DNA of 29,419 nucleotides from a virus, in the IMG/VR virus record IMGVR_UViG_3300046319_000012, positions 1-29,419 of that record; one strand, given 5' to 3'. Positions 3,673-17,627 of this stretch are shown here, in pieces; position 1 is the first letter of the stretch; every line of letters starts with the position of its first letter. The notes beneath the pieces were generated by a model. It ran no database searches and had not been told where the DNA came from. It worked only from the letters and a program-made list of their open reading frames with translations. Both the position numbers and the translations under genes were made by a program.

Positions 3673-3692
3673 TCAATTCTGCGGAATGATTA

Positions 3693-3717
3693 ATGGGAGC
3701 CTTGAGCTCCCATTTTT
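3693..3717. terminator. Terminator between convergent gp32 and tape-measure genes
   Basis: ATGGGAGC at 3693-3700 pairs with GCTCCCAT at 3706-3713 around a 5-nt loop, followed by a T-run at 3713-3717. It lies 21 nt after the gp32 stop, and its right edge touches the end of the leftward gene. The T-tract favours termination of the rightward transcript. In the leftward direction the trailing tract is weaker (ATTAATCATT), so two-way function is possible but less certain. Confidence 0.85.
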
Positions 3718-5272
3718 ATGCTTGTCGTAAACGACTATCAGCGTACCTGTTAACAGATGAATCCTGATTTCGAATCGGCGCTCGAATGATCTGGTTCTGT
3801 GTAGTATTGTTATTTACTGGTGCATTAACTATGTTAGAACCACCAGATTGTTTCTCAGGTAACGATGCACCAGCATTATCAGCAGATTTTTGTTCAACAG
3901 TAGACGCCGATGTTGGAGCAGGTGCTTCTGGTGATTTAGAACCACCTTCACTTTTGAATGGATAGAATGGACCAACACTAACTTCTCCAGTTAGCTTGGA
4001 ATCAAATAATTTAATCTTAGGAATTCCAATAGCAGATAAAGCAGACATTAATCCATCTTTAGCTGATGTCAGGAATTCCATAAATGGTGTAACAACGTGT
4101 TCACCAATCCAAGAACTAAAGTCACCAATAACTTCTTTGATGGCATCCTTATCGAATAGACCAAACGTTAAGAAGTCCACGATACCAGCTAGACCAGCAA
4201 TAAGTGCCTTACCTATACTGCCTGTTTTCATATACTCATCGAAGCCATCTGTAATACCTTCGAATAGAGATCCAACGATCATACCAATAGCAAAGATTTT
4301 ACCCAAAGCCTTGAGAATATTCATCGGGCTAAACATAGTCTTTATAGCAGTCATGAAGCCTTCACCCAAGAATCCAGTGATCGTATCCATTAAACCACCA
4401 CCACCAGATGCTTTTTCTGGTTTAACTTTCTCAACTCCGCCAGTCTTACCACCAAGCCCGTCTCTGATTTCTTCTAGAAGTTTAAGTTCTTTTTCTTGAA
4501 CTTTGGCTGCTTCCATTTCAGACTCTTGCGCTGCGCCAGCGTTTAGAGACATAACTGGAGTTGGAGAGAATTGATTAGTTGCTACATCATGTGAGCCATA
4601 TTTGTCTGTCAACTCATTACGTTTTGATATGAGAGCAGCACCACCCTTGGTCTTAGACATTTGCTCTTCAGATAAACCAGTGGCTCTTTTAAACTTATCA
4701 ATTTCTTGTTCGTGGCTTTTGATTTCTTTAGCAGTTTGAAATGCACCTTCTGCATTAGCTGCACTAGTATCACCACCAAGAAGGCGTTGCTTTTCTCTGA
4801 ACTCGCTTTTAGCAATAGCTTTGTTAAATACTCCACCAACGTTTAGAGCACCCATCACTGTTCGCCCTAACCCACCAGTCTTAAGGCTTAGCTTTTCTTG
4901 AATACCTTGCTTCTTTGCATTAAGGCTGGCACCCATCTCTTGGAATACGTTACCTTGAGTTTTCATTGTCTGGGCTAGGTCTGCGATATTAGCAGCTTCA
5001 ACACGCCACTCACGTTCGTAGTCTTCTTGCTGTTTTGCTCTACGTTTAGTAGTCTTTAGTTGATCTTCAAGAGTGTCCAGAATCTTTTCTTGTAATCCAG
5101 AAAGATCTTGATTACCAGTAGAAACTTGTTTAGTTTTCTCGTGATGCTGAGACAATTCCATCAATTTTTTGATTGAGGTTAGCTCGCCCAACGTAGACAC
5201 TTGGGCTTCTAGTAAGTTTTTGAAATCACTTGAACTTACATTAACAACATAACCTAATTGATTTTTTGCCAT
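3716..5272 (-). CDS. Tape-measure / baseplate hub protein (gp29 position)
   Basis: A 518-aa protein at the end of the leftward block. It has a coiled-coil-rich N-terminal third (for example EKILDTLEDQLKTTKRRAKQ), a Gly/Ala-rich hydrophobic centre (ILKALGKIFAIGMIVGSLF and IGKALIAGLAGIVDFLTF), and a Ser/Pro/Asn/Gln-rich tail (VNAPVNNNTTQNQ). This composition is typical of tail tape-measure proteins, which sit inside the tube and set tail length. In T4 that job belongs to gp29 (590 aa), which lies near 26 and 51. Its place immediately after a gp26/gp51-type pair with a frameshift signal strongly supports this call. The gap to the upstream stop is 2 nt. There is no clear residue-level match to gp29, so the gene symbol is left open. 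Confidence 0.7.
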   Translation of the reverse strand: MAKNQLGYVVNVSSSDFKNLLEAQVSTLGELTSIKKLMELSQHHEKTKQVSTGNQDLSGLQEKILDTLEDQLKTTKRRAKQQEDYEREWRVEAANIADLAQTMKTQGNVFQEMGASLNAKKQGIQEKLSLKTGGLGRTVMGALNVGGVFNKAIAKSEFREKQRLLGGDTSAANAEGAFQTAKEIKSHEQEIDKFKRATGLSEEQMSKTKGGAALISKRNELTDKYGSHDVATNQFSPTPVMSLNAGAAQESEMEAAKVQEKELKLLEEIRDGLGGKTGGVEKVKPEKASGGGGLMDTITGFLGEGFMTAIKTMFSPMNILKALGKIFAIGMIVGSLFEGITDGFDEYMKTGSIGKALIAGLAGIVDFLTFGLFDKDAIKEVIGDFSSWIGEHVVTPFMEFLTSAKDGLMSALSAIGIPKIKLFDSKLTGEVSVGPFYPFKSEGGSKSPEAPAPTSASTVEQKSADNAGASLPEKQSGGSNIVNAPVNNNTTQNQIIRAPIRNQDSSVNRYADSRLRQA

Positions 5273-5274
5273 CT

Positions 5275-5418
5275 TTATCTCTTTTTAGATTCGATTCTTT
5301 GTTTTTCTTCTTCTAGATACTGGATCAACATATGTGTATAAATTTCTCGCTCAAATGGTATCATGTTTTCTAACTCAGCTAGAGAGTATTTGTGATACTG
5401 CATCAAAGCGAAATTCAT
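5275..5418 (-). CDS. Small gp51-like / tail-assembly chaperone frame
   Basis: A 47-aa reading frame starting MNFALMQYHKYSLAELENM and continuing IPFEREIYTHMLIQYLEEE, a pattern I associate with the small protein that follows gp26 in T4-like aquatic phages, often labelled gp51 (baseplate hub assembly). The same frame is open upstream of this ATG through LCHESLVNFYK, back to a run of eight T residues at the end of gp26 (5459-5466 on the + strand). It can therefore be expressed as a -1 extension of gp26, adding about 61 residues for a product near 300 aa. The conserved-looking NFYK-NFALM stretch spans the ATG, which argues that the frameshift product is the functional one. The stop at 5275-5277 lies 2 nt before the tape-measure start. 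Confidence 0.72.
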   Translation of the reverse strand: MNFALMQYHKYSLAELENMIPFEREIYTHMLIQYLEEEKQRIESKKR

Positions 5419-5456
5419 TTTATAGAAGTTCACCAAACTCTCGTGACACAGGTTTA

Positions 5457-5466
5457 TTAAAAAAAA
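5457..5466 (-). promoter_or_regulatory. Candidate programmed -1 ribosomal frameshift site
   Basis: On the coding (minus) strand the gp26 frame reads AGT TTT TTT TAA. The T8 run contains T_TTT_TTT in the correct phase, with the zero-frame stop directly behind it. After a -1 slip the frame is open for 61 codons to the stop at 5275 and includes the entire gp51-like peptide. Slippage on homopolymers can also happen during transcription. I did not find a convincing downstream pseudoknot by eye. Confidence 0.65.
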
Positions 5467-6179
5467 CTTTGCATGCCCTCCAAGGCAACTTTGTGGTGTT
5501 TACCACACACAGGGCAGTTATACTCTACTTCTTTTCTAATCTTTGGCATTGTAGTAAAGAATGCTTGAATATTCTTAAACTGGTCTGTGGTAAGATTACC
5601 CAAAAATGTTAGAAGCTCTTCTTTCTTCTGCTCAGCGCCATAGTGGAGTTCGTCGCCCTGATAGATGTAGTCAATACAATCTGCGATAACATCAAAAATC
5701 GCATCAATGTTTTCAGTGTCTAGCTCTTCAAGTCTAGTCATAACTTTCATCGTTGGATACCTCATCACAACACCAACGTCTTCAAATAAATCAATCTTGT
5801 TCGTGTGACCTTCTGGCTTGTCTACTTGTAGACTAGTTAAATCAATAGAGATTTTAACCTTAGCCTTGTCGTTTTCTCCTCCGTGATCGATATCACATGG
5901 GAATAGAAGTTCAACAATTTCACCGACAGACTTAGCACGGATCTGCGTGAAGATGTATTCAATATCAAACATCGCCAACTTATCAATATCAATTTTATCT
6001 AGAACGCAGTCTTGGATAACACCCTTTAGGCTGTCAATCATCACAGTGATGTCTTCAGATTGTTGTGCTATCAATAAAGCCTTTTCTTCTTTAACGAGAA
6101 AGGGACGATACTTAACATTCACTCCAGTGGATGGCACCGTTAAGTTGTACTTCGGTGTTGCCATAATTGGTAAAGCCAT
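5457..6179 (-). CDS. 26: gp26 baseplate hub subunit
   Basis: A 240-aa protein similar to gp26 of T4-like phages (208 aa in T4), a factor in baseplate hub assembly. Key stretches are PKYNLTVPSTGVNVKYRPFL and VKEEKALLIAQQSED near the start, then FDIEYIFTQIRAKSVGE in the middle. The C-terminus is a zinc-ribbon-like YNCPVCGKHHKVAL. The gene ends AGT TTT TTT TAA, i.e. on a T_TTT_TTT heptamer, a canonical -1 slippery site. A fraction of ribosomes probably shifts into the gp51-like frame. The start at 6179 has an excellent AAGGAG 7 nt upstream, lying inside the last codons of gp16. Confidence 0.82.
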   Translation of the reverse strand: MALPIMATPKYNLTVPSTGVNVKYRPFLVKEEKALLIAQQSEDITVMIDSLKGVIQDCVLDKIDIDKLAMFDIEYIFTQIRAKSVGEIVELLFPCDIDHGGENDKAKVKISIDLTSLQVDKPEGHTNKIDLFEDVGVVMRYPTMKVMTRLEELDTENIDAIFDVIADCIDYIYQGDELHYGAEQKKEELLTFLGNLTTDQFKNIQAFFTTMPKIRKEVEYNCPVCGKHHKVALEGMQSFF

Positions 6180-15794: not shown

Positions 15795-17627
15795 ATGGCA
15801 TCCAATAAGAAAATCAATGTAACAGAGTTAGACTTTGATAATATCAAGTCTAACCTAAAGAACTTCCTAAAGGGACAAGAACAGTTTCAGGACTACGACT
15901 TCGAAGGTTCTGCCATGTCTGTCTTACTAGATGTCTTAGCATATAATACTCATTATAATGCCCTGTATAATAACATGGCTATTAATGAAATGTTTTTAGA
16001 CTCAGCACGCAAGCGTAACAGTATTGTTTCTCTTGCTAAAATGCTTGGATATACACCACGTTCTGCATCATGTGCCAAGGCTATTGTGACAGTAACGGTT
16101 TCTGGTGGAGTTAACTCACCCTCTACAATCACATTACCTGCATACTCAGAATTTACCACTAATGTAGATGGAACTCAATACACGTTCTATAATACAGGTT
16201 CAGTAACTACTACTCGTTCTAATAACGTATATACTTTTACAAATTTAGAAATCACAGAAGGTCGCCCACTAAACTTTAAATATACGGCTTCTGCTGGTTC
16301 TCGTTACATTATACCAAACAGTAACGTAGACATCAACACTCTAAAAGTACGTATTCAAGAAAACCCAACTTCTTCTATGTATGAGACTTGGTCGAATACA
16401 GATTCTGTAGTCAACGCTACACCTGTTACTAAAGCGTTTTGGGTTAAAGAAATTGATGATGGTCTTTATGAAATCACATTTGGCGATGGTAATATCGGTC
16501 GTGCTTTAGATATAGGTAATGTTATTCACTTAGATTATTTTGTATCTAGCTTAGACGCAACCAATGGCGCTCGTGCATTCTCATATAATGGTGCAACAAT
16601 TCTTGCTGGTGCCACAGTTACAGTAACAACTACTGGAATTGCATCAAATGGATCTGATAAAGAAGCAAATGACTCTATCCGTTTTAATGCTCCAAAATTC
16701 TATGCCGCACAGAACCGTGCGGTAACTCCAGATGACTATAAAGCTCTAATTTACGCTAACGTACCAGAAGCAAAGTCTGTTTCTGTTTGGGGTGGTGAAG
16801 ATAATAATCCTCCTGTTTATGGTAAGACATTTATCTGTATTAAACCAAAAGATGCAACTAAACTGACTACAGTTCAGAAAGCTGCCATCACTTCTTCTAT
16901 CCTTAGCAACCGTAACGTTGTTTCTGTTATCCCTCAAATTGTAGACCCAGAATATATTAACATAGCCCTCGATGTTACTGTTTATTTCAATGAACAAGAT
17001 ACATCTCGCACTGCTGCTGAAATTGCCACTTTAGTCCGTCAGACAATTATTTCTTACAACGATTCTGATTTACAAACATTTGATGGTATATTCCGTTTCT
17101 CTAAGTTAAGCAAACTTATCGATGAGACTGATCCATCTATTGTTAATAATATTACAACAGTACTGCTTCGTCGTAAGATGACTCCACGTTACAATGTGTC
17201 AGCGCAATATCTGTTGAATATGATTAACCCGATCTATTATTCTGGTGTGGCTGAAGAATCATTCCAGTCAACTGGATTCTACATTGCTGGTTCAGATCAA
17301 GTACATTATTTGGATGATGATGGTATTCGTTATGTGCGTTTGTATCGTCTCGGAACTAATGCTACTAAAATTGTCGTTAATGACCAAATTGGTACGATTG
17401 ATTACTCTAAAGGTATCGTTGATATTAAGAACTTGCACATTACTGCTCTAGCAGATGTTGATTTTGAACTTTCTATCGCCCCACAATCTAACGACGTTGT
17501 TTCTGCCCTAACGCAAGTTGCAGAAATTGCACTAGACCACTTGAAGATTACTGCGATTGCTGATAAGACAGCATCTGGTGACTTACGTGGTGGATACAAT
17601 TATCAGTTTACTTCTAGTCGCTCATAA
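15795..17627 (+). CDS. 6: gp6 baseplate wedge subunit
   Basis: A 610-aa protein corresponding to T4 gp6 (660 aa). In T4 gp6 dimers form the inner baseplate ring that connects wedges. The N-terminal region is highly typical: VTELDFDNIKSNLKNFLKGQ, then FQDYDFEGSAMSVLLDVLAY and NTHYNALYNNMAINEMFLDSA. The baseplate J-type core follows, including EIDDGLYEITFGDGNIGRAL and the late NRAVTPDDYKALIYANVPEA plus SVSVWGGEDNNP-like segment (about residues 300-335). The start abuts the gp25 TAA and the stop overlaps the next ATG by one base, so 25-6-7 form a tightly coupled wedge cassette. Confidence 0.92.
   Translation: MASNKKINVTELDFDNIKSNLKNFLKGQEQFQDYDFEGSAMSVLLDVLAYNTHYNALYNNMAINEMFLDSARKRNSIVSLAKMLGYTPRSASCAKAIVTVTVSGGVNSPSTITLPAYSEFTTNVDGTQYTFYNTGSVTTTRSNNVYTFTNLEITEGRPLNFKYTASAGSRYIIPNSNVDINTLKVRIQENPTSSMYETWSNTDSVVNATPVTKAFWVKEIDDGLYEITFGDGNIGRALDIGNVIHLDYFVSSLDATNGARAFSYNGATILAGATVTVTTTGIASNGSDKEANDSIRFNAPKFYAAQNRAVTPDDYKALIYANVPEAKSVSVWGGEDNNPPVYGKTFICIKPKDATKLTTVQKAAITSSILSNRNVVSVIPQIVDPEYINIALDVTVYFNEQDTSRTAAEIATLVRQTIISYNDSDLQTFDGIFRFSKLSKLIDETDPSIVNNITTVLLRRKMTPRYNVSAQYLLNMINPIYYSGVAEESFQSTGFYIAGSDQVHYLDDDGIRYVRLYRLGTNATKIVVNDQIGTIDYSKGIVDIKNLHITALADVDFELSIAPQSNDVVSALTQVAEIALDHLKITAIADKTASGDLRGGYNYQFTSSRS

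Follow-up and report, generated by a model that had tools for sequence, protein, structure and literature searches.

Genes 26 and 51 of a T4-like phage as a probable single tail-assembly chaperone locus with programmed -1 frameshifting

Is the small open reading frame annotated as gene 51, which follows gene 26 in a T4-like hub cassette, a gene in its own right, or is it the second part of a longer protein that begins in gene 26? The question was raised by a 29.4-kb IMG/VR virus record, the whole of which (the window) was analysed. An earlier note, made from the letters alone, had described how gene 26 closes on a T8 run that contains an in-phase T_TTT_TTT, and how a 61-codon -1 frame leads from there into a gp51-like peptide, a layout that proved exact to the base. 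Five things are read from sequence: the slip site, a -1 frame that is open and under protein-level constraint, the conservation of both, the enrichment of a Shine-Dalgarno (SD)-like element and the single-ORF equivalent in T4. Together they point to genes 26 and 51 being, very probably, one tail-assembly chaperone locus, which would yield a short and a long form by programmed -1 frameshifting in the style of lambda G/GT.

Layout of the locus and identity of its products

The features of the locus, in window coordinates, are:

5457 to 6179, minus strand: gene 26, predicted short tail-assembly chaperone (TAC-N), 240 aa, from PF12322, phrog_150 and an AlphaFold2 model
5460 to 5466, minus strand: slippery heptamer T_TTT_TTT inside the T8 run (5459-5466), kept as T_TTT_TTC/T/A in all relatives
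5457 to 5459, minus strand: zero-frame stop TAA directly 3' of the slip site, from the sequence
5275 to 5460, minus strand: -1 extension of 61 codons plus stop, the predicted C-terminal domain of TAC-NC, the long chaperone, from the open frame, the coding signal and alignment to T4 gp51
5275 to 5418, minus strand: the 47-aa 'gp51' ORF of conventional annotation, with a partial phrog_634 match
5476 to 5481, minus strand: Shine-Dalgarno-like GGAGGG within gene 26, from anti-SD pairing and motif counts in 42 representatives
3716 to 5272, minus strand: putative tape-measure protein, 518 aa, directly downstream, from position, hydrophobic stretches and relatives

On the minus strand the 3' end of gene 26 reads ATG CAA AGT TTT TTT TAA TAA ACC. 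After the slip, the -1 frame reads LINLCHESLVNFYK and then the 47-aa peptide MNFALMQYH..., 61 codons in all, before a TAA that ends at 5275, 2 nt short of the ATG of the next gene at 5272. The predicted fusion has 301 aa and a computed mass of 34.9 kDa, against 27.3 kDa for gp26 alone. When both strands are scanned, the T8 run is unique in the window, with one other T7 on the minus strand. There are 34 in-phase X_XXY_YYZ heptamers in the roughly 9,190 codons of the window. The gene 26 site is the sole T_TTT_TTT among them, and at none of the others does the -1 frame stay open for more than 31 codons.

The surroundings yielded two further observations. The gene at 15795-17627 has its nearest matches in pelagiphages and Methylophilales phages, at ~41% identity. 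A terminator-like hairpin on the plus strand (3692-3714; 9 pairs and a T-rich tail) adjoins the putative tape-measure gene at its end, in the space that separates genes of the plus strand from the hub operon of the minus strand.

The gene 26 product matches Pfam PF12322 (T4_baseplate) with E=8.8e-65 (218.9 bits vs a cut-off of 24.5, over positions 2-218 of 219) and phrog_150 with E=9.2e-71; a PDB sequence search with gp26 returned nothing relevant. When its AlphaFold2 model (pLDDT 85.7) was compared with PDB folds by Foldseek, the top two matches, both weak, were to the HK97 tail assembly chaperone gp13 (2ob9); the fold matches span E=0.66-6.6, the best having E=0.66 and probability 0.84, with 3fgx, which is termed a tail assembly chaperone in PMC9603447, at rank 11. 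The likeness of the modelled fold to the HK97 chaperone may be taken as a hint. The earlier note had also called the downstream gene a tape measure, and of this claim the part that concerns position and synteny stood, while detectable homology failed to bear it out: the 518-aa ORF has no PHROG or Pfam match and no homology to tape-measure families, and the next genes of the relatives (518-837 aa) likewise have neither a PHROG match nor tape-measure family homology. The 518-aa protein does carry two strongly hydrophobic stretches, and HTVC008M has a detectable tape measure in the corresponding region, with one small ORF between. The gene is regarded here as a putative tape measure.

Conservation of the slip site and the status of gp51

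Relatives were retrieved from IMG/VR by peptide patterns that avoid the slip site, which gave 80 loci; pooled with seven heptamer-bearing isolates, these provided 42 representatives at <85% identity. The Ackermannviridae, Vibrio phage K475, the T4-type phages and the later isolates stand outside the 42-representative statistics. The slippery run was conserved, which the earlier note had named as support for its reading: an in-phase heptamer lies at the end of gene 26 in 80/80 loci and 42/42 representatives, taking the form T_TTT_TTT, T_TTT_TTC or, once among the 80 loci, T_TTT_TTA. As far as each contig reaches, the gp51 frame is open in -1 in all 80. In the 42 representatives the codon preceding the Phe-Phe pair is Ser, Asn, Asp or Gly, its third base always T. 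Every one of them has TTT as the first Phe codon, with TTC making up 34% of Phe codons. Against codon usage this choice of slip-site codons has a naive P of 10^-18.8, a value that kinship makes larger in truth. In the relative with T_TTT_TTA (L067) the second Phe has become Leu and the heptamer is intact, and thus the heptamer outlives the amino acid.

The -1 frame upstream of the gp51 ATG was analysed in the 12 representatives that have the window's ATG, by counting single-base codon differences. Over the 13 codons before the ATG, 66% of changes are synonymous in the -1 frame (232 synonymous and 121 nonsynonymous), against a neutral expectation of 17%; the same stretch in the other two frames gives 10% and 18%, with stops present. 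These 13 codons evolve as protein in the -1 frame, and conservation of the residues upstream of the ATG was the other support that the earlier note had named.

Such constraint bears directly on the conventional annotation, in which gp51 is a separate small gene. GenBank records give it as such. The ATG at 5418 is kept in the window's clade (12 representatives), and in D527, phiGrn1, VAP7, K475, BUCT608 and phiM12 an ATG overlaps the stop in a manner like translational coupling; on these grounds gp51 could have a start of its own at that ATG, or ribosomes could reinitiate there after terminating on gene 26. A separate gene is, however, at odds with the protein-level constraint on the codons that lie outside it, and in most other relatives the position of the Met is taken by Thr, Val or some other residue. 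No conserved ribosome-binding site precedes the ATG, where anti-SD pairing ranges from -5.8 to +1.4 kcal/mol and is mostly absent; the pattern that the earlier note had associated with a separate gene (no slippery run, stops in the -1 frame, a conserved ribosome-binding site) is absent. The annotated starts in the isolates fall at varying internal codons, or the gene is left out, and they cut into a conserved region whose -1 reading runs to ~54-63 codons. In HTVC008M, for example, the annotated gp51 (4367-4504) begins at an internal ATG and has 45 aa vs a -1 reading of 63 residues, with the loss of 18. The 47-aa peptide matches phrog_634, the T4 gp51 family, with E=1e-19 but over columns 71-116 of 121 only, and it also matches, weakly, the distal end of phrog_150, a family longer than gp26; the partial match to the one and the far-end match to the other indicate a fused form, which is what T4 gp51 encodes. 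The 47-aa ORF is probably not a separate gene, and an origin of gp51 by independent initiation or reinitiation is judged unlikely, although some extra separate initiation at the ATG may occur within the window's clade.

A candidate stimulator and the predicted course of slippage

Work in E. coli has established that U_UUU_UUC and U_UUU_UUU are prone to frameshift without stimulators, that H_HH.U_UU.Y motifs rank among the most efficient, that SD-like sequences 6-17 nt upstream stimulate -1 frameshifting, and that a downstream stimulatory structure is not always present in prokaryotes (PMC4066793). The published SD-like motif list and the experimentally defined 6-17 nt interval were taken from that source. 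In the window, GGAGG lies upstream of the slip site at an 11-nt gap. Across the 42 representatives mean anti-SD pairing is -7.4 kcal/mol, vs -5.4 (sd of mean 0.19) with synonymous resampling, and a listed motif lies 6-17 nt upstream in 33/42, vs 18.5 (sd 3.1) expected and a maximum of 27 in 500 resamplings, these SD-like contrasts being inflated by kinship among the sequences. GAG is used in 22 of the 26 Glu-Gly pairs vs 24% gene-wide. The SD-like element is conserved beyond the amino-acid requirement.

Nine of the 42 representatives (L013, L026, L035, L040, L048, L064, L065, L085 and L087) are without a listed SD-like motif at the usual spacing, yet their heptamer is intact; they perhaps have a weaker stimulator, or none. 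Downstream of the slip site no conserved RNA structure was found, RNAalifold on 13 relatives giving two consensus pairs only, and the single-sequence downstream fold is no better than shuffles (z = -0.47). Because no downstream structure is conserved, the SD-like element is the only stimulator candidate.

Slippage, its frequency, the action of the stimulator and the chaperone function are all predictions, and the process would proceed as follows. Most ribosomes would translate gene 26 and stop at the TAA, releasing TAC-N of 240 aa. Some ribosomes, with the two TTT codons of the heptamer T_TTT_TTT each occupied by tRNA-Phe, would slip back one base, aided by pairing of the upstream GGAGGG with the 3' end of 16S rRNA, and would read 61 further codons to produce TAC-NC of 301 aa. 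By analogy with lambda gpG and gpGT, many short and few long copies would coat the tape measure, recruit tail-tube subunits and then leave.

An identical fusion would result if transcriptional slippage added a U to some mRNAs, and the T8, which no other T run of the window equals in length, would be the natural site. However, 30/42 representatives have just six Ts and then a C, the heptamer is always in phase for tandem tRNA re-pairing, and an SD-like element would act on ribosomes and not on RNA polymerase; this route is accordingly given very little weight. Homopolymers are error-prone and the record is metagenome-derived, but a sequencing or assembly error splitting one continuous ORF is refuted by the relatives, in which the frame break recurs in 80 loci, T6C runs included, and in 14 isolated phages (HTVC008M, P-SSM5, Syn33, phiM12 and D527 among them), and its probability is negligible. 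Equally negligible is the chance meeting of a T-rich gene end with an unrelated small ORF, which the T-rich stretches of AT-rich phage genomes might suggest but which conservation refutes, with the codon statistics and the single occurrence in the window also against it. Programmed -1 frameshifting by the ribosome is the reading followed below.

Isolated phages, the T4 contrast and known systems

The survey of isolates covered 22 phages, of which 14 combine the full heptamer with an open -1 frame (Sf-CH11, Syn33, P-HM1, P-SSM5, phiM12, BUCT608, phi-Grn1, ACP17, V45v66, Asswx_1, ORM_20, Atu_ph04, D527 and HTVC008M), four have a tetramer only and four have divergent genes. HTVC008M carries T8 TAA as in the window, plus GAGGG. 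The tetramer phages pSK20, KP6, VAP7 and K475 have a -1 ORF after gp26 and only U_UU.Y (U_UU.C or U_UU.U). In the Ackermannviridae and Vibrio phage K475 the tetramer forms are ATT TTC, GTT TTT and CTT TTT, followed by a homologous -1 ORF (~2217-2402 in pSK20), and in VAP7 and K475 the ATG overlaps the stop as TAATG. From these sequences, the four tetramer phages may use either frameshifting or coupling.

The four with divergent genes 26 and 51 are T4, CF1, Cronus and Konradin, and they have no slippery site; T4-type gene 26 keeps the Phe-Phe pair as non-slippery TTC TTT in T4, CF1 and Cronus. T4 gp26 used as a query of viral contigs gave six loci, a small control. The families are those of the window, gp26 belonging to PF12322 and phrog_150 and the C-terminus of gp51 to phrog_634. 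Of the 249 residues of T4 gp51, 1-201 match PF12322 and 147-246 match phrog_634, and in profile comparison the N-domain and the -1 extension of the window's family align in order along T4 gp51. These domain matches and the ordered alignment identify T4 gp51 as the single-ORF counterpart of the predicted fusion, and T4 gp26 would be the counterpart of the short form. In the window both the PF12322 and the phrog_634 domains are present, and they are joined in one polypeptide only upon a ribosome slip. The four phages with divergent genes encode the long form separately, as a gene 51 of ~250 aa, whereas in the window one locus would serve for both.

The chances are about even that, in the T4-like phages at large, production of the two chaperones by SD-stimulated -1 frameshifting is ancestral (Kyanoviridae, pelagiphages, Schizotequatrovirus, Emmerichvirinae, Emdodecavirus and Menderavirus, together with the Ackermannviridae with their weaker U_UU.Y tetramer) and that the relatives of T4 lost it, having two divergent genes instead. 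On that view the textbook phage T4 would itself be the exception. The earlier note's broader proposal, that a T4-like hub cassette whose parts are usually annotated separately uses the chaperone frameshift, is supported, T4 with its split genes being the exception here too. The contrast is a natural experiment, in which one lineage would obtain the two proteins by frameshifting and another has a gene for each. It also matters for annotation: in public records gene 26 is complete and gene 51 is either cut short or left out, and the long chaperone is absent from the annotations examined, which include those of abundant marine T4-like phages; by analogy, that protein would be key to tail assembly.

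In 2022 Vladimirov, Gautam and Davidson reportedly identified tail chaperone genes of T4-like phages, in a paper whose title proposes a mechanism other than frameshifting. Where the PRFect paper takes up that mechanism, it is held to apply to 'some T4-like phages' with a short copy and a fused copy (PMC10274946), and a passage of the Adele paper cites Vladimirov et al. 2022 for poly-T slip signals in T4-like TAC-N genes (PMC12846349). For Pseudomonas phage Adele, the Vandenendeviridae and the Andersonviridae, a conserved GTTTTT close to where TAC-N ends was inferred to be the site of -1 frameshifting, and, as at the present locus, the -1 frame is open in all members and the downstream part is mis-annotated as its own gene (PMC12846349). 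The differences are that those are other phage families, and that the window has the heptamer T_TTT_TTY, here with tests of pre-ATG coding and of the SD-like element.

From lambda G/GT come a short product and, less often, a long one made by -1 frameshifting (Levin 1993; Xu 2004; reviewed in PMC5009743), and Atkins et al. 2016 described the lambda-type frameshift as conserved in long-tailed phages 'except T4' (PMC5009743). The window's locus resembles it in that the slip site falls where the upstream ORF ends and in lying directly before the tape measure gene (putative in the window), and differs in its T_TTT_TTY with an SD-like element, its larger N-domain (240 aa, PF12322) and its baseplate-hub naming. 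E. coli dnaX and IS elements share an SD-like sequence ~9-14 nt before the -1 slip site (PMC4066793, PMC5009743), whereas the window's locus is without a conserved downstream hairpin or pseudoknot. As far as the passages cited above go, poly-T slip sites in T4-like chaperone genes are already in the literature, and the window's locus is a well-supported further case, to which the present analysis adds the candidate SD-like stimulator, the tetramer variants and the mis-annotation.
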